DNA from: Tetmemena sp. SeJ-2015
Taxonomy: Eukaryota > Ciliophora > Spirotrichea > Sporadotrichida > Oxytrichidae
Assembly: GCA_027382625.1 (NCBI GenBank)
Contig: JAJKFJ010021309.1
Location: 1-64,000 of the forward strand
Reading direction: 5' to 3'
DNA: 64,000 nt
Within the stretch, counting starts at the first letter, position 1. Every line of letters starts with the position of its first letter. The notes under the pieces are model-generated. The model saw only the letters and a program-made list of their open reading frames with translations, searched no databases and had not been told where the DNA came from. The translations under genes were made by a program, and so were the position numbers. This document shows, in pieces, positions 994-50,685 of this stretch.

Positions 994-3900
994 TCATTAG
1001 AAATCTTTTAGCATTTGCTTGAAAAGCCCTCCTTTTTAGATAAACTCATCCACTTTCTTATATCCGTACACCTTATCATTCTTATTCTTGGCCTTATCAA
1101 TTATATATTTCCAATGACAGTTTCTGGTCAAAAGTGTTTCTTTTCCAACCACAATCAAGTGCCTTCTGGCTCTAGTGATAGCCACATTTAATCTCCTGCA
1201 GTCCTCAATAAAGCCTAGATTCCTGGTTCTCACACAACCCACAATAATTATATCCCTCTCTGCACCTTGAAAAGCATCAACAGTTGAAACTTGGATTGCC
1301 TTCAGTGCATCATTCTTTGAGTCAATAATCATCTGATTTATAAGCTCCTCTTGAGCTTTATAAGTCACAATTACTCCAATAGAAAAGTCTGGTGTGTCTG
1401 TGGCTTAACCGTCATTCAAAGTAGAGGGATCTTCATCATCAGAACTTGAAGATGAAGACTCGCCTTTTCCTTCTTGATTTTAGCAAATCAGCCAACACAG
1501 GTAATCCAAGAGAGCAACGATGAAATGAGCTTCATAGTAGTTACGATAGGAAAACTCACTCTTAGATTCTTAACCCTTTTCGGCTGAAATGAAAGTCACT
1601 GGCTGAAACTGTTTGATAAGTTTCTTCCTTGCATTCGCTCTAACTCCATTCTCCAGATAATTTTCATAGAAAAGATCGTTTGCTATCTATGCAATCATAG
1701 GATGGCACTATATCATATTAAGTGAGTGAAAATTTTAATTACTCTATATTAAGTTCGAAGTAAAATGCAGTAAAATTGATCCTTCATAAGCCTGACAAAG
1801 AGTGGTAAATGAGGAAGCATATTTTCATTTCTTGCTCTGTTTTTGCTCTCATCAAGGATTTGTTATTATTGAAGCCTCTTTTCCTTGAAATTGAAAGAGA
1901 TAATAGGAGGAAGTTGCAATGGATCTCCCACAGCTATCAACTTTCTACAGTTGAATCTTGAAATTGGGAGCAAACTTTGAGGCTCAAGCATCTGAGAGCA
2001 TTCATCAAGAATTACTATCTTGAATTGCATGTTCTTCATAACTTCAAAGCCTGTAGATGCACAAGTTGCCCCAACAACACGCTTCTCCATTAAAAGTTTT
2101 ACTCTTTCTTGGATAGTCTGCTCTCTAATATGTTTGATGCTCAACTCAATATTTTAAAGCTCTTCTTAGATATTTTCAGTCATCTTGTGAGCACCTACCG
2201 AGGCAAGCAACTCCTCTCTCATAGTTTCTAATTCCTTAAGAGCCTCCTTATCCGCTTGCTTCTTATTTGATGCTGAGTGGTGAGTGTATCTTAATAAATG
2301 CTTATTAATTTTCTTGAGAGATCCTACTCTCGCAAAGTCTTCAAACTCTTAAGTTATAAATTAACTAATGTAGATGTATTTACAATTTTAACTCAGAATT
2401 CTTAAGCATCAGTAATATTCTATCTACCGCTATATTTGTGAGGGCACACACAAGAATCTTAATTTTTGTGTCTCCAATCAAATCGAGAAGAGTGCAAATG
2501 AAGCGAATTATGGCTACGAGGAGATATGACTTGCCACAGCCAAAAGCACCATGAACTAAAATTACATTTGAGTCTTCAGCAGGATTGCTCGTACTTTCCG
2601 CTACACTAAGAGAGTCCATTACGTCATCAATAGCATCTTAGTTTTCTGGAGCCTTGACTCGTTCTAAAAACCATTTAGTAACCTCATTGAGCACACACTC
2701 TTGATCCCTGTTTAAACGGAACTAAATGCAAGCTGCTTGTCTTACAGCATCAACTAATTTTGGGCAGCACTTTCTTCAGCACCTTAAATTTGGCTTTGCT
2801 ATTCTTGATTGAAAGAATACTGTCAACATAAGGATTCGATCTTTCTTTAAACTCTATCAGATTTTCTATTAAGCTTGAGAAACCGTTCAGATTAACTGAC
2901 TTAAAAGCGTACTTGTACTGATCTACCTTGTTTCTCACATCATCAATTGGCCCGATGATTGAAACTCTTAGCTTTATTTAGCTCTTATCTTTCTTGTTAA
3001 CACCATGCCAACAACTTTTTACAAAGAGCATCTCACTCACGTCATTCAAATTCTGATTTGTTATCAAAGGTCTCTTAATGAGAACCCACAAATCATCGAC
3101 CATCATTTCAAGCCTTGAAAACTATCTCATCAGCTCGGCATCTCCTTGCATGTTCTTAAAGCATATCATAAAAGAGCCTGGTTTCTCTTCATCAGAGTCA
3201 TCTTCACTCTATTTTTCTTCCTCACTCTCAGATTCTTAATCCTATTGATAACCTTAAGCCTGATAAGGCTACTTGGGCTCTTTATACTTTAGCTTTCGCC
3301 TTATTTTTTTTCTTGAGATTCTTGAATTTAGCATTTTAGATGACTCTTTAATTGCCTTGACTTGGCTTATTATATTAGAGGTTAATAGGAAATATTTTCA
3401 TCTCTGTTCTCTAATTATCATAGTCCTCTTTTATGGCATATTTGAGCATTTCTAATACGGCTAAGATGAAGAAACCAGCATAAGATTCTCTATTTTGAAG
3501 GATTTGTGCTCTTGGAAACTAATAGATTGGGTGTCGAATTGAAAAGTCTATCATAGCCTCACTAAATGATTTGATTTATTGATTTCTCTCTTAAATTGCC
3601 CTCTCGTGGGCATCTTTTAGCCTCTCAAGAGCGTTCTGTTTTTAAATTTGATCTGTAAGAAGTCTCTTGTGCATAGGGGAAGAGATCTTCTTTTCCACTG
3701 TGCTTGACTAAAACTTATTATACTCATGATGGCCTTCTTAATCAGTGGTTTTGGAAATCTCATCAAATTTCCTTTTCTTCTTACTCTCTTCAATAAGTTT
3801 TTTAGAATCGGCTCTATTGCCCTAATCTTTTTGATTTTAGCTTGATTCATCTTGCTCATCTATTTAATCATTCTAACTTTATTTTAGCTCCTCAAGCTCC

Positions 3901-5449
3901 ATCAATTTGTCTTAGCTGTTAGTAGTTCTCTACTACTTCTAATTTCTAGGGTCTTGAAATGCTAAATACTACTTTTCAAATTCAGAGCGCTTAGAAGTGT
4001 CAAGGTCCTAGGGAACGGGTAAGTTTAGACCCTACTCCTAAGCCACTCTTTTGATAAGGTGAGAAATATCCTGTACAACCCCAGAACCTTTGCTTTTCTT
4101 TTCTCTTGCCTAAGTATCATCCTGTGCTTAGGTTTAGTTTTTATCTTTGGAGGCTTGAGAGTTCATGAAGTTAGCAACAGAGAATTTTTAAGTCTCCTGA
4201 TCATCTTCCCCTTCTTCATCTGACTCACCTTTGAACACATTAAGATCATCTTTATGATCTAGTCCTCTAAAGCTTTGATCTGTCTCAAGGAAAGATTATT
4301 TTAAGCCTTCAAATCCTCGTCAACACCTAAATGTCCCTCCTTCTCTCTTCTTTCCTTCGCTTCTTGCCTCTTTAAAGCAACTTGCCTTAGATACTCATCA
4401 TAGTCTTTGTTACCGCTGGCCTCTTCAACTTCTTGACCAAGATTTAAGGTTGGGTTCCTCATATTCATCTTAATGTTGTAGCCATGGTTTTGAGCTGAGC
4501 TATTAGCTGATGATGCTATTCCATTATCTGAGAAGACTTAGTTTCGTAAAATATTGGCCCTCTTTTAAACCTCTTGAAGTTGCTGTTAGTCTCTTTTCGC
4601 CTATAACTATCTCTACCTTTCTTATTCAAGCTGAGCTGGATTAACTGAGTTGTCCTCATCGCTGTCGTTAATAATCTCCTGTACTTTTTAAGGACATTTG
4701 AAAGCCTTCTTTGGGAATCCCAGAGTGGCTTTTTTCACGCCAGCATTCATAGTGATGGGAAGTCCTTTGCCAACAGATCCTGTCTTCTCTCCCTTAATCA
4801 TGATTGGACTCTTCTTCTCCATTTCAGATTTAGTCTTTGAAGACTTAGATCGCCTTGCTTCGAACTGAGATTCTCGCCTCACTGATAACCTCCCTTCTTT
4901 TCTTCTACCCTAATAAAAATATTTAAGCATGCAACAAGTGATTTACTTCTATTCTAACTATAAACTTGTTGAGTATAAATTCCTCATCTTCTTTCAAGTC
5001 TGGTAGAATCCTGAAAAATTTGCTATCCAGCTAATTTGTTCTGCAGCTTCTTGCAAACAGAATCAACTAAATAACATAAGATAAATGCACAAAAATAACA
5101 TAACATAGAATTGATGGTATTTCGAAATAGTAATTACCTTTGCATTCTTGATGTGATACTCCATAAATCCGTCTTCCCAAACTTTTTATTTTTGTTTAAG
5201 ATGCTTCGTGTACTGGACATCGTAGTATTCAACTTCGACTGAAACTTAATCATTTGGCCCAAGATGAAGGAAGCCTTCGCTTGTTGAAAGCGTGACTCCA
5301 TTACTCTGCGAGCCATAATTCTGATAGGGATTTTAGCTTTGATGAGGGAAATTATTCTGGGAGGGGGCATAGTTTTAATCTCCCTGATAACTTGGCTATT
5401 ATTGAGGTGGGCCGTGGAGCCTCCTATTTTAAGCTGCATTTTTGTTCAT
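994..5449 (-). CDS. ZGRF1: ZGRF1-like superfamily 1 DNA/RNA helicase
   Basis: Minus-strand gene starting at ATG 5449 (MNKNAAQNRRLHG) and ending at TGA 994. The N-terminus carries a DUF2439-type domain (VEYYDVQYTKHLKQKQKVWEDGF, then a segment ending EEFILNKFIVRIE). A long Gln/Glu/Lys-rich linker follows, then the helicase: P-loop GAFGCGKS, Walker B DECSQ, GDPLQLPP, the LLRTQYRCHP motif, motif V STVDAFQGAERD and motif VI RRLNVAITRARR. The DUF2439 plus UPF1-like helicase order is that of ZGRF1, a 5'-3' helicase acting in homologous recombination and crosslink repair (family knowledge). No GRF zinc finger was identified. Three GT-AG introns fit: 5067-5137, 4910-4946 and 1708-1742. One IES lies at 4242-4291. 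The gene uses TAA and TAG as Gln dozens of times and TGA only as stop. Confidence 0.9.
4242..4291 (-). other. IES in helicase gene, pointer AAGAT (ATCTT on coding strand)
   Basis: AAGAT occurs at 4242-4246 and 4292-4296. Unexcised, the acidic linker frame changes abruptly. Removing 50 bp joins the preceding KAQNN to LNVFKGESDEEGEDD in one frame that stays open into the helicase domain. Confidence 0.8.
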
Positions 5450-17982: not shown

Positions 17983-17995
17983 GTGCAAGTCAGCA
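17983..17995 (-). other. Scrambling pointer, body copy (TGCTGACTTGCAC on minus strand)
   Basis: The 13-bp sequence ends the minus-strand CFAP100 body. The same 13 bp occurs in opposite orientation at 19773-19785, at the start of the terminal CFAP100 segment. Confidence 0.85.
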
Positions 17996-19689
17996 TGAGG
18001 ATCAATAGTGTTCTTGTACACCTTGTGGATGTCTCTCTTGAGCTCGTTCAGGATTTCCACAATATTCACATCAGCCTCTTCATCTTCTCCCTTTCCTCCT
18101 TTAGCTTTGTCTCTCTCTGCCTGGGAGTTAGAGATGGTATTGACGCTACTTCTCTTCTTTAGCTCGTAGAGGTTCTTCTCACTCTCTGCGATCTGCTCCT
18201 CCAAGTTGCGCTTGTTCTTCTCATGGACGTCCTTCTCTTTCCCTAATTTCTCTTGTAGCATAGCAAACAACTGTTTCTGGTTTTCGAGCGAGTGCTCCAC
18301 TTCCTAACTCATGTGAATCAGGTACAAGTTCTTCTCTTCAAGCTCCGAGAAGATATTGTTCAGCTCATTGGGGTCAGTGAAGAATAGCTCCTCATCAAAG
18401 AAGTCTTCAGATAGCTCAACTAAATCCTCTCTAAAGAGCATCTCGAACTTCTAGTCCCAGTCCTTGTCAGTCATCGTTTCTCTCTTAAGCTAAAAACACA
18501 CTATGATACTAATTGTATAGCTGCTAGATCTGCTGATTCCTTCTTCCAGCAGCTCCTCCTCTATGCATCCCAGCTTGATTATCTGACTTCTAGGTTGTTT
18601 ACATATCTCCAATGTTTGAAGCGCCTCCTCCTTTGGCTTATTCAGTGAATAGCTCATCGTCGTTGTCTCTAAAGATGAGTGCATCGTTTCGCTTGTCCTT
18701 CCTATGGAACTCTATCCACTCTCTCTTTATTCGGTCTCTCTTAGTCCTCTTCATCCTCTCCATCTCAGTTATCCAGTTTGGATGAGAGAGCTCTAGTAAG
18801 AACTCCTTATGTGCTTCTAAGCCTGTCAGCACGTCCTTGTTCTTTTCAATCTCACTCTTCAGATTTGCAATTCTTGTATCTATCTCTTAAATTCATTGTT
18901 CAATTCATTGGAACATATATGTGTCTATCTTCTTGATCTTGGTTTCCTTCTTCTTTCTGACTGCAACCATTCGCTCTGCTTCTTTCTCCTTCTCCTGTGT
19001 GGTTATATTATCCAACTCGATGAAGCGCATCAGCTTAATGTGATCACTCTCAAGTTAGTTGCCAGAGTCCTTGAGTGCTATTGCCTTTCGCTTCGACTTG
19101 TGATCTAGTTCCTCTATTTCCTTTCTAATGGTGGTGTTTGAAAGCTCAACCAGGAACATTTCTTTCTTCTAGTCTATGAATTCATTGATGTTCTGAGGTC
19201 TCTGCTCCCTTGGGAACTACACTCTTGATTTGGCGATGTGCATGGCTGCAGAGATATAACCTCTCTGAGTGGAATTAAAGTTGTAAAGGTTTTCTTCAAT
19301 TTGAGCTGGAGGGATATCCGAGTCCTTCACTTTGCGAAGTGGTACTCTTGAAGTGGCTGTCTTCTTGTCCCAGATTTTCAAATTTTTTGCCTTCTCCTTT
19401 GCTTCTTTACGTTTAACAATTAAAAGCATTGATTTATGAAAAGTAAGTAGGTTTCTGTTTTTCGGTTTCTCTAGTGATGAAGACCTCCTCATCATTTGGA
19501 GGGCGAAATGGCGAATACCCAGGCATCATCTACACACACATTTACAATATTTCTCTTCCAATTTTTCAAACATAGATATAGCAATTTGACATTGTTTAAA
19601 GCTTTTTAATTAAAGTTTATAGTTACCTTTGAACCCTGAGGCATGGTGGCGCCTCCTTGAAGGCTAAGTTACGACTCCATCTCGTCCAT
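17983..19689 (-). CDS. CFAP100: CFAP100 (CCDC37), N-terminal and central part of a scrambled gene
   Basis: ATG 19689 (MDEMESQLSLQGG), GT-AG intron 19530-19626, then GYSPFRPPNDEEVFITRE, the KIWDKK segment, a long DUF4200-type coiled coil (EFIDQKKEMFLVELSNTTIR, then HKEFLLELSHPNWITEMERM) and a second conserved block FTDPNELNNIFSELEEKNLYLI. CFAP100 pairs with CFAP73 in the modifier-of-inner-arms complex that ties inner dynein arms to the axoneme (family knowledge). IESs sit at 19411-19450 and 18880-18923; one more phase change near 18490-18640 is unresolved. The body stops at NTIDPHADLH, inside the 13-bp pointer at 17983-17995. The expected C-terminus is not downstream; it is found inverted at 19773-20182. 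Beyond the pointer the strand is only AT-rich readthrough. Confidence 0.9.
18880..18923 (-). other. IES in CFAP100, pointer TCTATCT (AGATAGA on coding strand)
   Basis: Copies at 18880-18886 and 18924-18930. The 44-bp segment contains two in-frame TGAs. Excision joins KIKKID to TRIANLKSEIEKNKD within the DUF4200 coiled coil. Confidence 0.85.
19411..19450 (-). other. IES in CFAP100, pointer GTTT (AAAC on coding strand)
   Basis: GTTT at 19411-19414 and 19451-19454. Excising 40 bp joins FITRETEKQK to RKEAKEKAKNLKIW, restoring a frame otherwise shifted. No GT donor is present. Confidence 0.8.
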
Positions 19690-19772
19690 TTTATTTCAAT
19701 TTGTTTCTTAATTATCCAAACTCACTTCTAAATCAATGTAAATTATCACTGTGAATCTTATTACCTGTGGTT

Positions 19773-19785
19773 TGCTGACTTGCAC
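19773..19785 (+). other. Scrambling pointer, inverted-segment copy
   Basis: Identical 13 bp to the minus-strand sequence at 17983-17995. Flanking bases differ on both sides, so the repeat length is exactly 13. Confidence 0.85.
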
Positions 19786-20182
19786 GCAAAACAAACTCTA
19801 GATATCCTTACAGTAAGCATTCATCAAAGTAGTATAATTATTATTTTAGGATATTGAAATTACACTAGAGAACTACATGAAGGAGATCAAGCACATCGAA
19901 GATGAGGACGAGAGTGAAGTAACCAAGGAAGAGAAAGCACTCAAGGGTGAATACAAGAGAGCACAGAGGGAGAAGAACCATGTCATCAAGCAGGAACAGA
20001 CCGAGAAGAAGAACGCTGAACTTAGACTTAGAATGGAAAGAGTCTACCAAAAGATGGGAAGACAGGCCATGCCACGCTCTATGAAGAAGAAAGTCAAGAG
20101 AGAGAAAGCAGTCGTTAAGATCGATGAACACACTCTCGACAGACTCAGGTATTTAGGCCAGATCGAGTAGCAAGACCAGTGA
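19773..20182 (+). CDS. CFAP100: CFAP100 terminal segment, inverted relative to the rest of the gene
   Basis: This plus-strand segment begins with the pointer TGCTGACTTGCAC and encodes ADLHAKQTLDILT. A GT-AG intron (19813-19849) is followed by DIEITLENYMKEIKHIED and a Lys/Glu/Arg-rich helix ending MGRQAMPRSMKKKVKREK and GQIEQQDQ, with TGA at 20180-20182. It has no start codon of its own. Read after the minus-strand body it continues DPHADLH into AKQTLDILT without a break, and it resembles the C-terminus of CFAP100 proteins (basic helix with a MPRS-like motif). It lies just beyond the 5' end of the gene, so building the macronuclear gene needs an inversion. An independent small gene is unlikely given the shared pointer and phase. 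Confidence 0.9.
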
Positions 20183-37208: not shown

Positions 37209-38948
37209 TCACTATTCAGAGCTTAATTTTTAATTTTGCCCTTGTGCTGTATTTCCGAGAATGCTCCTCTGGAGCTTAAAGTTCTTAGCTTGTCTGCTTT
37301 AAATAAGCTCTTTGGCTCTCTTAAGAGATTGTGCCATGTTTAAATTGTCATTCAAGTCAGGAACGAGGTACTTCTGATTTTTACTGAGCTCTATATGAAA
37401 ATGTTGAGAAATAAATACAAAGAAAGAAAAGATAACTTACTGAGCTTGATCTATGTGTTTTACTAGCTAACTTTCTCAGATTAGTCCACAATAACTACTC
37501 TTTTTCTCTAGGCCAGATCATCTTATGAAGCTTGGCGATGGTTATTATACTGATCAGGCAAACTTTCCTTTTCTTGTTAATTCAATACAGTTACAAAACC
37601 ATTAAATTTAAATGCCTTATAAACCGTTCAAGTGTGGAGGATTTATTTACTAAATAAATTCCTATTACTAGCTTTGATTATAAGTTTATGACAGTTTTTT
37701 GTTATTAGAATCGTTAATTTAGTTCATTAGGATTCTTTGCGAATTATATGCAGCAGCATTATTTTATAGCTTTCTTGCCCCGTTAATCACAGATTGTGAT
37801 CTCGTTTAATCCTAAGGCTTGTTGCTTTTTAAATTCATCTTAGGGAACCTTGAATCCATTTGCTCTTTAAACAAAGACATTTTATTTGATTGCTCTCTCT
37901 GAGTCTTATCTCCAAAGAGGGCTATTTGAGAAGAATCGTGCTCGTGTTTTCTATTCAGAGCGGATTTGAAATTGCTGAAGTACTAATCTTGCTCCTCTTC
38001 GTTGTTAACTGTCTTATTTTGGATCTTCATTTCGCTCTTATTGATCAAGGATTTGTCACTGTCTCTTCTCATGTATGCCAGAGTCAGGATCTTTTCTAAC
38101 TTTGGATCTTGTTTCGTCCCTTCCAAATGAATTTAAAGAATAAAAGTATAGATGAACAGCCTTGATCTCAGGGAAACTTAAATCTATCTAAGTTTTGATC
38201 CAAGGCATTTATTCTTCGCCCATGTAGCATTTCTTAGTAAGCCTTATAAAATTCGAGAGTGGCTTTGCCTGCATGATAAGAGTGTTTGGAGGAGATGATT
38301 TTGTGTCTCCGCTAAGAATTGAATTTGCAGTGCCATTTTTCTACATTTTGGGAAACTAACCGTAAGGAGGATTGTCTGTCGTCAGTCTGTAGGTTGGGGA
38401 GGAGTCCCTCTCTACAAGACTGCTTAGATTCATAGAGCTCTTGTAAGTTGTAATGAACTTATATGCTTTATCTTAATTATGATCAGAGCTAGAGCCATCA
38501 AAGGACTTCATTCTTGACTGACTAGTGGGAAGTTATTGTTGGGTGTAATAATTATTTTGATAGACATTTTGCCCTCCATCAAATCCAGACTGAGATATCT
38601 AAGAAAGGTCATCCCCTCTATATGGATCTCTAGTTATCACTCCACCTATGAGGCTCATATTTCTAGTGCGAGGAGAATGCTGTATCCTGTTCTCTAAGTT
38701 GCGGATCATACTGCTCTTATCAATCACAAACTTGGCTTTTGCCTCTTTGATATCCTCAGGGTTTGTCCACTGCTGGCAATCTTAAAGTGGAACTTAATCC
38801 ACTATCCCCAGATTGAGCCCTTTTGATAAGGATCTATAAATATGTTCTAACATGGATTATAAATAGCTTAAGAATCCATTAATTTCAGTTCTTTCTCATT
38901 AGATTGACTTACCTAAGCTTGCCTTCCCCTTCTCAGTTCACTCTCCAT
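37209..38948 (-). CDS. Unrecognised Ser/Asn-rich protein gene
   Basis: ATG 38948 starts MESELRRGRQAQVSQ. The frame shifts once to DIKEAKAKFVIDKSSMIRNL, followed by a long open stretch rich in Ser, Asn, Gln, Asp and Tyr (SGFDGGQNVYQNNYYTQQQL, SSMNLSSLVERDSSPTYRL). A helical segment (PKLEKILTLAYMRRDSDKSL, then SEMKIQNKTVNNEEEQDQYF) and a basic C-terminus (RAKELIQSRQAKNFKLQRS) end at TGA 37209. At least three phase changes (near 38760, 38130 and 37400-37700) show unresolved IESs. No domain recognised. About 530 residues. Confidence 0.5.
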
Positions 38949-39088
38949 TGCCAGAAATAATGATTAGCAGCTTCTGTTGGAGAACTTTACTTCCCCGGCT
39001 TCTGTAACTTACTCTAGCTCTTGCTCATTAATTTTATAATCAATCGAATATAATTAAATGCTGTAAAATTGCTTTTTATTTTCAAGGT

Positions 39089-40946
39089 TCAAATTTGATA
39101 AATGTTGTTCGAACAGCAAATGAACGTCTTAACTTATTTATATAGCACACTATAAATATCTAATTTTGTAAGAATAGCAAAATAGATAGCTCTCCTATAA
39201 ATGCGTATTCTTAACTATATACTGCCCTCCAGCGGGACTAATTTATTTTCAATGCTGTATTTATTTAGATGTAGGTTTAAATCTTCATTCTCAGAAAAAA
39301 TGAAATATATTTTTGCTTATGTAGGAGTGTTGACAAAAGAGCTAGCAGCAGTAGAAGCATTTTTACTATGATTAGGTTTAATGGGTTTGCTAGCTTTCTC
39401 TGGTAAAATTGACAGACCCACTCCTAGAACAGATGCATTTTTTGGGCCATTGGCTTAATTATTGATTTAGTTTTGTCTTCGCTCTTCCTCTCTTTGAAGC
39501 CTGATGACATCAATATCGTAGTAGTAGCCACTGAACAAGTTTTGAATTGAGTTTCTCCTAAGAAGAAGAGAGTTTTATCTTAATAACTCAGCATTTTCCT
39601 CCTTCCACTAATCATTCCCGTTTGCTTGCTTGGCATCGAAGTTATCATCACCTTGATCGGGGAAATAAGGGGCTCTCAGTTTCTTGTCTAGAAGTGCCTG
39701 CCAGTTATAATCTTTGATCCACACATGTTGCTTTACTTCGTTTGGTCCGTTTAGGCCAAGCCTGTTGGCTGGTTTTCTTTAAAGACACTTATTTATAAAG
39801 TCAGCAGCTTCGATACTCCATCCTTCAGGCAATTCATGCTTTTTTATTTACACCTGTTTGGCAAAGATGGCATCTCTAATCTCCTTCCTTGACTTGCCGT
39901 TGTATGGTCTCTAAAGAATGGCTTTAAAGAGAAACTCATTCTTACTCTTCCAAGCATGAATTCGTAACCAATGACACCTAATGCGAAATAGTCTACTGCA
40001 CAACAGTGATTCTATCTGCACATAACCTCTGGTGCTATAATGAAGTTTAAGGGTTTGAACTAATTTAAAAAGATAGGGATACTTACCCATGTAACCAGGC
40101 GTTCCCGAGGTGTCTTATGAATTTTCTGGGGTCCATATTCTAGCTATTCCAAGATCAGTAATTCGAACATAGCCATTGCTCTCCATCACTACATTTTCAG
40201 GTTTAATATCTCTGTGGATAACTCCGTTGTTATGCATGTACTCTAATCCCACAATCATGCATGCCATCATAAATGATTATAGATGAAATGCAATAGTAGG
40301 TTTTAATCATGAACTCTGCAATAATTTAGTGAAATCTTTAATTAAATACTTGTTTAGTCCTCATTGAAGCGCTTCTTTTTACCAATGTGAAATCTCAAAT
40401 CTCCTCCAGTAAGGAGATCGCACACCAAATACAAGTCTTCTCTGTCTTGGAAGGCGTAGTTCATGTTTATTAAAAATCTACAAATGGAAGTTAATTGAAA
40501 GTATTTTGCTAAAATATTTCGAATTATAGCGTTTGAGTGAGAGGCAAATCTTCTTACGGGTGCTTAAGCTGTGCCAGTAACTTTCTCTCATTCATAACCG
40601 AATTCACAGATCGCTTAAAACGCTAAGAATTAAAAAGTTTTAAACTTTGTAATGATTCTTGCCTTGGACATTTCTTTCATTGCATATAGCTGCCCCGTCT
40701 TCTTTTTCTCTACTCTCCACACCTATCATAAATCTTAGCAACCTTTATATCATTAGAATTTTATAAGCTGATTTCAGCCAAGGGCTAATTTCGAATACTG
40801 TTCGAATTGTGTTAATCTGTTTCTTGTAGGATTATTTAGCCCCATCTTGTTTTAATAATCCATGTAAAATTGTGTAGATGTGCTCTTACCTTTCCAAATC
40901 CTCCCCTGCCAATCACATAGTGGAATATGAAATTATTTTTGCTCAT
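39089..40946 (-). CDS. AGC-like serine/threonine protein kinase
   Basis: ATG 40946 (MSKNNFIFHYVIGRGGFGK) gives the glycine loop in the first 19-codon exon. Then come VWRVEKKKTGQLYAMKEM (ATP-binding Lys), SVMNERKLLAQLKHP, the hinge YLVCDLLTGGDLRFHI, VIHRDIKPEN (catalytic loop), ITDLGIAR (DFG replaced by DLG), SGTPGYMAPEV and DYFALGVIGYEFMLG, then the NRLG-containing segment LQRKPANRLGLNGP and an AGC-type tail (NWQALLDKKLRAPYFPD). GT-AG introns are near 40830-40889, about 40465-40550, 40316-40349, about 40050-40100 and a 35-nt one near 39910-39945; IESs are 40266-40305 and 40614-40644. The stop is taken as TGA 39089, but the tail beyond FVNTPT is AT-rich and may not be coding. Confidence 0.9.
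40266..40305 (-). other. IES in kinase gene, pointer ATCAT (ATGAT on coding strand)
   Basis: ATCAT at 40266-40270 and 40306-40310. Excising 40 bp joins DQTKFM to MACMIVGLEYMH, the conserved helix before the catalytic loop. An intron (40316-40349) lies only 5 nt beyond the pointer. Confidence 0.85.
40614..40644 (-). other. IES in kinase gene, pointer CTT (AAG on coding strand)
   Basis: CTT at 40614-40616 and 40645-40647. Excising 31 bp of AT-rich sequence joins KARIITK to RSVNSVMNERKLL. Confidence 0.8.
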
Positions 40947-41731
40947 CGCCGCTATAAAACTTTTGTTTATTGAAAAGAACAGTCTAAATTTAAGTTTTCA
41001 AGGCTTTAAAATGAGGAGCGTACCCTACTTTTATCAAAATTGCAAGGTCTGCTAAGTAATTCCCATTAAACAATTTAATTTATAATGGGAAAAAATTATA
41101 TGCCAAATTTACACACTCACTCTTAATTTATAAATCAATAACAAGGTTAAAAAACAATAACTATTAGAAATTGCAACATATATGCTTTTAAAATAACTCA
41201 GGACGAATGTATAGTTAAAAGTGTAAAGGGCTTTAAAATCATTTATATTTCGAATACTGTTCGAATTGTGTTAATCTGTTTCTTGTAGGATTATTTAGCC
41301 CCATCTTGTTTTAATAATCCATGTCAAATTGTGTAGATGTGCTCTTACCTTTCCAAATCCTCCCCTGCCAATCACATAGTGGAATATGAAATTATTTTTG
41401 CTCATCGCCGCTATAAAACTTTTGTTTATTGAAAAGAATAGTCTAAATTCAAGTTTTCAAGGCTTTAAAATAGGAGGAAGGGAACCTACTGTTTTCAATT
41501 TGGTCAAGAGCATCTGCTCTGAAGCTGCAATTTCCCATTAAACAATTTAATTTATAATCGGGAATAAAATTATAACACAGATAAGCCCAAATTTATTCAC
41601 ACACACTCTTAATTTATAAATCAATAACAAGGTTAAAAAACAATAACTATTAGAAATTGCAACATATATGCTTTTAAAATAACTCAGGACGAATCTATAG
41701 TTAAAAGTGTAAAGGGCTTTAAATTCATTTC
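40788..41731. repeat. Tandem duplication covering the kinase first exon and its upstream region
   Basis: Two units, 40788-41246 and 41247-41731, start with the same ATTTCGAATACTG and end with a shared AAGTGTAAAGGGCTTTAAA. They are near-identical over the intron start, the 57-nt first exon and about 80 bp upstream. They diverge in a short stretch (around 41030-41075 versus 41490-41535) and are again near-identical after it. The exon copy is intact in both. Confidence 0.88.
41349..41405 (-). pseudogene. Orphan duplicate of kinase exon 1
   Basis: This 57-nt segment is identical to the kinase first exon at 40890-40946, including ATG, the glycine-loop codons and the following GTAAG donor. The second exon follows only the inner copy, so this one is either an alternative first exon or a leftover paralogous MDS. 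Confidence 0.75.
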
Positions 41732-42874
41732 TTGGATTTTCTGTGCAAAATTGAAAGCAGGACTTCGGGCTCTGGAGGTTCATTCATACTCAATATTGAG
41801 TGAAAAATTATGAAAATTATTTAATCATTCATGTTCATATTCATGTCGGTGATTTTCCCTCCGAAGCCTGATTTATTGCCCATTATGAAATCGTCATCAT
41901 CATCCCTGAAGGAACTCTTATTAAAAGTTCTTTTTCTGGAGGCGTTACCGCTGCTAATGGCCTCTCCCCTTTCTGCCTTTTCTCTGGCCATTTTCTCAGC
42001 TATTTATTTCTTATAGTTGTTAAGAATTTTATCTCCCTCTTCCTTCCTAGACTTTATAAAGAATGAGAAATAAGATTATTTGAAAGTTAAAATTTGTAAT
42101 AAACTTGACTGGATTCATCATAGCATCTAGGATCTTCCTCCTTCTGTAGCTACTGATGAACAACGAGAAGGGAATATAGGGATTTTCCTCCACCTTTAAT
42201 TAGCCTGAAGTCAACTTCTTAAAAAATTGGTAGATGGCTCCTGTCCCTCCTCCTGCGTTCTAACCGTCCTTAGCCTATAGAAAGTATTAAAAAAAATCTT
42301 CTAGATAGAGCTTATAAGATAGGAAATCAGGGTATGAATATAAATAAGAACTTACAGCGTTGCTTCCTCCCTTAATGATGGATAGGAACTCCCCAAACTC
42401 AATCTGCTAAGAGCCATCCTCGTCCACCAAATCCACGATTTCTTGCACCTATTACCTGTTTTCCACAAGCCCCAAAGCTATCAGAGGATCCTCAAGCTCA
42501 TCAACTCCTATGCTTCCTGAGCCATCTTAGTCCAGGGAGTTGAAGTAAGTTCTTAATTGCTTCAATTCCTCATCATCAAAGTCAATACAGTGCTCTTTTC
42601 CATGGCGCTTGAGCCAGTTTCTCAAATTAGACTCAGGCCTAAACTGTAAAATTATAAGCAAGGCAAGTTTTAAATTCCTATAGTTTCAGAAACCATTTTA
42701 CGACTTTGTGTTTTAAATTAATGAGACACTTACAATTAAGTCTTCTGATTTGATAGCTTCCTCAACCTCCTCCTCTTCATCAGAGCCTCCTTCATCATCT
42801 GAGTTCTTTTCGTATTTATCGTAACTGAGGTTTGATGCTGATTTTTCTTCTTCTAGTTTACTCCTTCGCTGCAT
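41725..42874 (-). CDS. EF-hand calcium-binding protein
   Basis: ATG 42874 (MQRRSKLEEEKSASNLSY), an acidic head, a GT-AG intron after KSEDLI, then RPESNLRNWLKRHG. Two EF-hands follow: loop DQDGSGSIGVDE in NSLDQDGSGSIGVDELEDPL, and loop DEDGSQQIEFGE in VDLVDEDGSQQIEFGEFLSI. A basic/Lys-Glu helix (YKKQIAEKMAREKAERGEA) and a tail containing IMGNKSGFGGKITDMNMNMN lie beyond two short AT-rich gaps (near 42060-42110 and 42280-42360) that look like introns. The frame reaches TGA at 41725, inside the end of the tandem duplication; the last 25 residues may not be real. Loop positions 1, 3, 5 and 12 hold Asp/Ser/Glu residues fit for calcium. Function beyond calcium sensing is unknown. Confidence 0.82.
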
Positions 42875-43155
42875 TATTCTTCTTAATTATTTTTCTTGAT
42901 TTTACTCTCAAATTATATTCACTCATAATTCAATCATAAACCGAATTTTCTTCTTTCTTGGGGGGGATAGTTTAATAAGTTTAATCCAAATTAATTATTG
43001 CAGAAACAAAAAATAGATGCAAAGTAACTTTTATTTAGCATGTTTTAATTTAATTCAGTATAATAAAAGATAAAATAATTAAAGAATCAATTATGTTTTG
43101 AGAATACTTGTCACAAATATTAAGTCTTTTACATAGTGATGTTAATTAAGCTGAT

Positions 43156-49490: not shown

Positions 49491-50685
49491 ATGAGCGAAT
49501 CAGACGCAATAAAAGCTTTAAACGTCGCCATCGAAGCCATAAAAACAGAGGAGTTTGAAAAGGTAACCTTAATTACTGAAACCAGACTTTAATCATCCCC
49601 ATTTTTTGCAATAGGCTATGTTTAAAAAGGTAGGTGAAAAGTTTATTTAGCTATGAGATTTCTGGACAAGAGCATCAGAATAAAGGAACTGCAGAAAGCC
49701 ATTTATCTGAGGAGCTAAGTTCAAAAGAAACTACAAGGAGAGAATATCGCATTTGATGAGTTCAAACAGTCTAGTTTCAACCAAAATGGGAGCACTAGCA
49801 AAGCTGCTCCTTCCCCCGCAGAGTCTTTCAAGAGTAGTAGCTCAGCATCCACTGCTGCTTCCACAAGCCCTCAAAAGCAAGATATATGCTAATCAATTCA
49901 TAATGATTCTGTGTATACTTAAAAAGAAGAGGAGGAGGTGAAGAATTACACAGAGGAAGATGTAAGTAGAAATAGAAGGAGACTGAATCGAATCTTCATT
50001 AAACTCAAAAACACGTTTTAAATTAGCTTGCCAATAGGTTAAGAAATGCAGGGAGATCATTAACAAGAAAGACTACTATGAAATTTTGGGAATAACTAAG
50101 ACTGCTAATGATGATCAAATTAAGAATATACCCTTTCTTAAATTTCCCATTTTTAAGAAGGCCTACAAAAAACTAGCTTTGAAATTCCATCCAGACAAGA
50201 ATAGAGCACCTTAGGCTACAGATGCTTTTAAGAAAGTTTCTTAAGCTTTCACTTGTCTTAAATTGGATTATAATTAGGAAAAAAGAAAGATGTACAACGA
50301 GCATGGCTCAGAGGAAAACTTCTAGCAACGCTACAGATAGCAGTACAGAGAAGAGTTTGACCCTGATGATCTCTTCAGAATGTTCTTTGGAGGAAATATG
50401 TTCACTGCTGGTTTCTAGGGCCCTCGTGGCCACTACAACGTCTACAGAAGAGGAAACTTCAGAGATGATGAGGAGACAGAATAAGGCAGGAGGTAGCCTT
50501 AGACCCCTGGCCAGCAGATACTCTCTACTCTTGCTCCTTTGCTTCTATTCTTCTTGTTGACGTTCATGTCCAACATAGATAGTTTCTCGGGAGCTTCTCA
50601 ATTCTCCTATTCAATTAGGCAAACAGATAGATTTAGATTAAAAAAATATTGTAAAGCTCCTATAATCATATATGAAATGCGATGA
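49491..50685 (+). CDS. DnaJ/Hsp40 protein of the DNAJB12/DNAJB14 type
   Basis: ATG 49491 ([20 protein letters not shown]), intron 49563-49614, then [18 protein letters not shown], a Ser-rich linker, a second intron, and the J domain [39 protein letters not shown] with the HPD motif. The [15 protein letters not shown] segment, a Gly/Arg-rich stretch, and one membrane helix ([14 protein letters not shown]) followed by [13 protein letters not shown] and the start of a DUF1977-like tail come next. This is the layout of ER-membrane DNAJB12/14 co-chaperones, which recruit Hsp70 to the cytosolic ER face (family knowledge). IESs at 49621-49655 and 50127-50159. The TGA at 50683-50685 probably precedes further C-terminal residues, since family-like sequence (VETKNYFNQMARRYRNSE) continues behind it. 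Confidence 0.9.
49621..49655 (+). other. IES in DnaJ gene, pointer GCTATG
   Basis: GCTATG at 49615-49620 and 49650-49655. Excising 35 bp joins TEEFEKAM to [11 protein letters not shown]. The first pointer copy is exactly the first six bases of exon 2. Confidence 0.88.
50127..50159 (+). other. IES in DnaJ gene, pointer AAGAA
   Basis: AAGAA at 50122-50126 and 50155-50159. Excising 33 bp makes the J-domain helix continuous: NDDQIK to [14 protein letters not shown]. Confidence 0.88.

Follow-up and report, generated by a model that had tools for sequence, protein, structure and literature searches.

Inverted terminal segment and a 13-bp pointer pair in a probably scrambled germline CFAP100 gene of a spirotrich-type ciliate

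Passages of PMC9797194 describe how the macronucleus-destined segments of spirotrich ciliates are linked at pointers, one copy of each being retained, with translocation or inversion needed as well at scrambled loci; a template RNA that guides rearrangement is also mentioned there, with a citation of Nowacki 2008. The published spirotrich loci described in excerpts of PMC9797194 and PMC2394655 are of the same build as the locus considered here, and their pointers are generally longer at scrambled than at plain junctions. One such locus is actin I of Stylonychia lemnae and Oxytricha trifallax, which is likewise a scrambled micronuclear gene with some inverted segments and short IESs. As given in the portions of PMC2394655 drawn on here, the actin I pointers measure 6, 17 and 19 bp at three scrambled junctions and 3-10 bp at plain ones, and the plain IESs are mostly removed first, with the inversion following. 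Two differences from the locus described below can be taken from the same portions of that paper: actin I also needs segment 9 to be moved, whereas CFAP100 would need one inversion only, and the inverted part comprises segments 1 and 2 in S. lemnae actin I but the 3' end of the gene in CFAP100 (PMC2394655).

Scrambling by inversion only has been counted over whole sets of scrambled chromosomes. In the sections of PMC10901763 used here, the inversion-only share is 21.4% in Oxytricha trifallax, 37.7% in Halteria grandinella, 45.0% in Euplotes vannus and 69.4% in Strombidium cf. sulcatum. Chromosomes of the inversion type and the CFAP100 locus are alike in having at least one segment in the opposite orientation; however, the calls described in those sections (PMC10901763) come from a comparison of macronuclear with micronuclear assemblies, whereas for CFAP100 the call is made solely from germline-like DNA, by protein homology and microhomology. 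CFAP100 is absent among the matches listed in the literature on scrambled micronuclear genes.

The window, by which is meant the whole 64-kb stretch of DNA that was analysed, contains a locus that is very probably the micronuclear CFAP100 gene of a spirotrich-type ciliate in scrambled form, for which one inversion at a 13-bp pointer pair would be needed. Its main features are as follows.

17983 to 19689, minus strand: N-terminal and middle part of the putative CFAP100 gene, with an ATG at 19689 and several segments separated by IES-like inserts
17983 to 17995, minus strand: 13-bp candidate pointer TGCTGACTTGCAC closing the minus-strand part on its 3' side, the sole copy on that strand in the window
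19690 to 19772, no strand: 83-bp spacer from the start codon to the inverted segment, which would have to contain the 5' UTR and the macronuclear 5' end
19773 to 19785, plus strand: 13-bp candidate pointer TGCTGACTTGCAC opening the inverted C-terminal segment on its 5' side and giving an in-frame join
19773 to 20182, plus strand: inverted terminal segment, by homology the CFAP100 C-terminus up to the TGA (20180-20182), which alone matches P0011 and P0014 (2 of 16 homologues)
19813 to 19849, plus strand: putative 37-nt intron GTAAGC...TTTTAG, whose spliced product, containing LDILTDIEITLENY, resembles P0002, P0011 and the 8glv chain in length and pattern

The sequence TGCTGACTTGCAC stands on the plus strand at 19773-19785 and as its reverse complement at 17983-17995 (minus strand), with one copy per strand in the window, and comparison within the window shows that the bases flanking the two copies differ on either side. 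The minus-strand homology to CFAP100 ends with DPHADLH, within the copy at 17983-17995, and when the minus-strand part and the plus-strand segment are joined via the repeat, they continue in frame (NTIDPHADLH, then AKQTLDILTDIEITLENY). If the 37-nt GT-AG intron is omitted, the joined frame reads through to the TGA. A minus-strand part and a plus-strand C-terminus of one gene are found here together with an exact 13-bp match on opposite strands, in the orientation that the join requires. It had been claimed in a sequence-only reading of this DNA that the minus-strand gene stops abruptly at DPHADLH, that the same 13 bp opens a plus-strand segment at 19773-20182 and that this segment has no start codon. 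The second of these statements agrees with the present results in coordinates, strands and the 13-bp repeat. The first is true of the homology, which does end in the 13-mer, but not of the minus-strand frame, which past the repeat stays open for 32 further codons before it meets a TGA; similarly, the third describes the segment as a whole, but within it there is an in-frame ATG (YMKE), which could start an ORF of 101 aa (101 codons to the stop).

The 32 open codons and the internal ATG would be in keeping with two separate genes, or with trans-splicing of two transcripts from opposite strands. Either arrangement has next to no chance of being correct, since the parts overlap in an exact 13-bp DNA repeat, which is the signature of a pointer and not that of a splice-site pair, and since the plus segment encodes, at its 5' end, the residues that adjoin the break in the homologues. 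The plus segment was also considered as an independent gene, and this was rejected.

Inverted 13-bp repeats are common in this AT-rich DNA: the 64-kb window holds 334 such pairs, 82 of them within 2 kb. Consequently, what counts is not the presence of a repeat but its position exactly at the break that homology defines. Random pairs of opposite-strand points, examined over 15 bases each way and at 9 offsets, gave a match of at least 13 bp in 2 of 200,000 draws. The abundance of nearby pairs would favor an artefact of assembly or whole-genome amplification as the source of the inversion, by which a collinear germline gene was flipped between chance 13-bp repeats, and amplification chimaeras do often fuse inverted neighbours at short microhomologies. 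However, such a flip would require two breakpoints, both at the same 13-mer and both in the coding frame, whereas a typical amplification chimaera has one junction, and a repeat of only 13 bp would not mislead an assembly if this was built from long reads. In addition, a search of the assembly revealed no collinear copy, the 27-mer spanning the joined, collinear junction has no match there at up to 2 mismatches, and the germline look of the gene is independent of the inversion. An artefact is consequently judged to be unlikely.

With TAA and TAG read as Q, consecutive frames of the minus-strand part are coding, and no stop interrupts the plus segment before its TGA; this code (code 6, with TGA as the stop) fits. 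The joined protein would have 610 aa and carries DUF4200 (PF13863, E 2.6e-14). It aligns with the solved CFAP100 chain 8glv_AW as a single domain that spans the junction (13-594 versus 22-560, E 3.6e-33), and 9fqr and 8j07 each match it in two stretches that lie in the same order, although the second stretch of 8j07 is weak (0.0022). The axonemal protein CFAP100/MIA1/CCDC37 in these structures (PDB 8glv, 8j07, 9fqr) belongs to the same family and has the same N- to C-terminal order; its gene is not known to be split and inverted in the organisms from which they came. The presence of DUF4200 together with collinear similarity over the whole protein places the predicted product in CFAP100 (MIA1/CCDC37).

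A protein search with the joined sequence yielded 16 homologues, each with a precomputed DUF4200 domain; in this search scoring was limited to the 8000 candidates with the most shared words, and the query was an earlier join, without four residues that are now placed in the exon before the intron. The best homologue, P0002, shows 48% identity over 84% of the query length and is continuous across the junction (AIDQNADLQAKQNIDLLVEIEIKLDEYIKEQQYI). To avoid circularity, tblastn (code 6) was used to locate nine of the 16 homologues on the raw window. In this way P0002 was located on the minus strand with residues 28-48, 48-301 and 298-469, from 19514 down to 17965, and on the plus segment with residues 460-471 at 19774-19809 and 470-488 at 19841-19897, both of these plus-strand pieces being weak and taken from a low-threshold list (E 0.27). 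Residues 444-551 of P0011 fall on the plus strand at 19841-20158 (E 1e-9). The C-terminus was therefore placed on the plus segment for two of the nine, P0011 and, weakly, P0002. Nothing convincing was found there by tblastn on the raw window for the other seven, which include the full-length P0014 and P0016: P0003 gave a single out-of-register match (E 0.89), and the remaining six gave none.

In phmmer comparisons of the joined protein with the minus-strand part only, joining brought a gain of at least 5 bits for 5 of the 16 homologues (P0011 +52, P0014 +32, P0002 +25, P0010 +14 and P0017 +5) and no gain for 11 (P0016, -2 bits; ten others, mostly shorter proteins, -0.3 to -1.2). The plus part alone matched two homologues by phmmer, P0011 (8e-11) and P0014 (4e-7); against the PDB it retrieved no CFAP100 and one match at chance level (E 0.11). 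The identification of the gene as CFAP100, and of the plus segment as its missing C-terminus, is supported by these comparisons of predicted proteins.

The sequence-only reading had held, further, that the plus segment encodes exactly the missing C-terminus. The alignment of the joined protein with 8glv and the tblastn match of P0011 bear this out, but the segment contains a gap, which is best read as an intron, with a possible ambiguity between intron and IES. A direct repeat, GATAT, also flanks the C-terminal intron (window 19801-19854), so that an in-frame excision of the IES type could also take place there. Excision at GATAT was tried as an explanation of the gap and rejected: it would drop four residues that are kept in P0002, P0011 and the 8glv chain, and it is because the homologues retain these residues that the gap is read as an intron.

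The minus-strand part is divided by the following inserts.

18886 to 18930, minus strand: putative IES, 45 bp removed, with a 7-bp pointer AGATAGA and two in-frame TGAs; removal gives KETKIKKIDTRIANLKSEIEK, gap-free against P0002
19415 to 19454, minus strand: putative IES, 40 bp removed, with a 4-bp pointer AAAC; its excision leaves TRETEKQKRKEAKEKAKNLKIW, which P0002 has in identical form
18492 to 18522, minus strand: possible IES of 31 bp with the pointer AGCT; alternatives are TAGC (34 bp), TTAG (19 bp) and several GT-AG
19527 to 19644, minus strand: IES of 118 bp with a 6-bp pointer ATGCCT, or an intron; the best-looking of five listed GT-AG alternatives is 97 nt (19626-19530)

For the AGATAGA insert there is one weak GT-AG alternative of 42 nt (18914-18873), which would add one residue, and for the AAAC insert no GT-AG alternative was found. 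Nor was a GT-AG alternative found for an insert of 33 bp in the J domain of the DnaJ gene (50120-50159), which is IES-like and has a 7-bp direct repeat, TTAAGAA. Inserts with the features of germline IESs are therefore present in two genes, with AAAC and AGATAGA in CFAP100 and TTAAGAA in DnaJ. Within CFAP100, the scrambled pointer of 13 bp (n = 1) is longer than those of 4 and 7 bp, and perhaps 4 and 6 bp, at the inserts, which is the expected direction.

The contig to which the window belongs is 89,483 bp long, and a perfect (CCCCAAAA)3 is present on 3 of 5213 contigs, always in the interior and never at a contig end. Given this length and these interior positions, the assembly is not one of telomere-capped nanochromosomes, an argument that is weakened by the fact that telomeres may have been trimmed before deposition. 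Counts of the reversed telomere pattern (4 forward, 24 reverse) are no real control, because a reversed telomere unit is again a telomere unit. Contig C2828 (20310 bases) bears at 3860-4156 an interior array of telomere-type G4T4 repeats; shorter arrays, also interior, are seen on C204 and C2542. Of the 16 homologues, 14 have a longest contig of 1.2-2.2 kb, a length typical of nanochromosomes or transcripts; the values for P0016 and P0017 are 163 kb and 6.9 kb. Judged from its inserts and contig structure, the window DNA looks germline.

The DNA of the CFAP100 locus occupies a single place in the genome. P0011 has five matches there, of which three are the CFAP100 pieces in the window (in both orientations) and two lie on C1978. 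At C1978:28325-29352 there is a CFAP100-like DUF4200 gene, whose matched pieces stand on the plus strand in normal order with frame changes between them and are followed by an open frame containing KTGKQPMTRS. In its first piece this gene is 26-31% identical to the homologues, compared with 48% between the window copy and P0002; with such low identity, it is taken as a separate, divergent paralogue and not as a collinear copy. A collinear CFAP100 elsewhere in the genome was considered and rejected, the sole other matches of P0011 being pieces of this paralogue. The existence of a second CFAP100-like gene, and a collinear one, would be of some help to the explanation that an inversion mutation broke the gene in the window and left a dead copy that is not descrambled. 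Hardly any credence can be given to this explanation, because both parts have open frames and conserved residues, with no frame damage beyond the IES-like inserts or introns. Moreover, the gene on C1978 is divergent from the homologues to an extent that the window copy is not, and P0011 finds no further CFAP100-like place in the genome.

For the other genes in the window, the matched profile pieces of THOC3 (minus strand, 44440 to 43159) and of a helicase (minus strand, 2399 to 997) are collinear, and the DnaJ gene (plus strand, 49987-50682) and a kinase gene (minus strand) each keep to one strand as far as they are matched, the kinase being matched in part. No inverted piece was seen in the matched parts of these four genes; consequently, the case for scrambling in this genome comes here from a single locus. 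Scans of the window with Rfam (gathering threshold) and for tRNAs gave no matches. Beside the minus-strand kinase gene, at 40788-41730, there are direct repeats of 225 nt at 40788/41247 (99%) and of 133 nt at 41112/41598 (98%). A tandem-repeat scan of 38000-43000 returned 0 rows, despite the direct repeats that the repeat search had found there. An open frame at 41456-41037 (minus strand) contains GRGGFGKV, which is like a kinase loop, and has no Pfam family. The repeats at 40788-41730 may represent a local duplication of a germline gene segment.

The preferred reading of the CFAP100 locus remains that of a scrambled micronuclear gene. That its assembly needs an inversion had already been claimed from the letters, and this fits well with the present results, in that the break lies within a perfect 13-bp repeat on both sides and the orientation is the appropriate one. 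In the rearrangement that we infer, CFAP100 would be split into several macronucleus-destined segments, the last of which is inverted and lies 83 bp upstream of the ATG. As the macronucleus develops, the short IESs would be excised at direct-repeat pointers, and the two inverted copies of TGCTGACTTGCAC would recombine so that either the main part or the terminal segment flips. Since the pointer copies face each other, one recombination would suffice to flip the gene and put the C-terminus behind it, and one pointer copy would stay at the junction, resulting in a normal CFAP100 gene. The order expected for CFAP100 would be that of actin I, where inversion mostly comes after the removal of the plain IESs. 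RNA from the old macronucleus would probably guide the recombination, and the macronuclear 5' end would fall within the 83 bp from 19690 to 19772 if the two segments do not overlap. In the gene-assembly literature, an operation of this kind is called "hairpin, inverted repeat." It is also conceivable that the inversion is optional, in which case cells that leave the segment unflipped would produce a shortened CFAP100 with the 32 extra codons at its end. This is very unlikely; if it were so, two protein forms would arise from one germline locus via alternative descrambling.

The earlier statement that inverted scrambled segments are already known from hypotrich germlines is sound, for such segments form a standard class in spirotrich ciliates, according to the sections of PMC10901763 cited above. 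Because inversion-only patterns are already widespread in that account, the CFAP100 locus would be a further clear example of known ciliate scrambling (PMC10901763). The locus is compact and well delimited, with one inversion and one 13-bp pointer pair in 2.2 kb. Its merit lies in this compactness and in needing no macronuclear reference, since germline-like DNA and protein homology are enough to read it; this suggests that scrambled genes may be recognised in a germline assembly even where there is no macronuclear counterpart. Minimal loci of this kind would be useful for testing the roles of pointer length and guide RNA in inversion.
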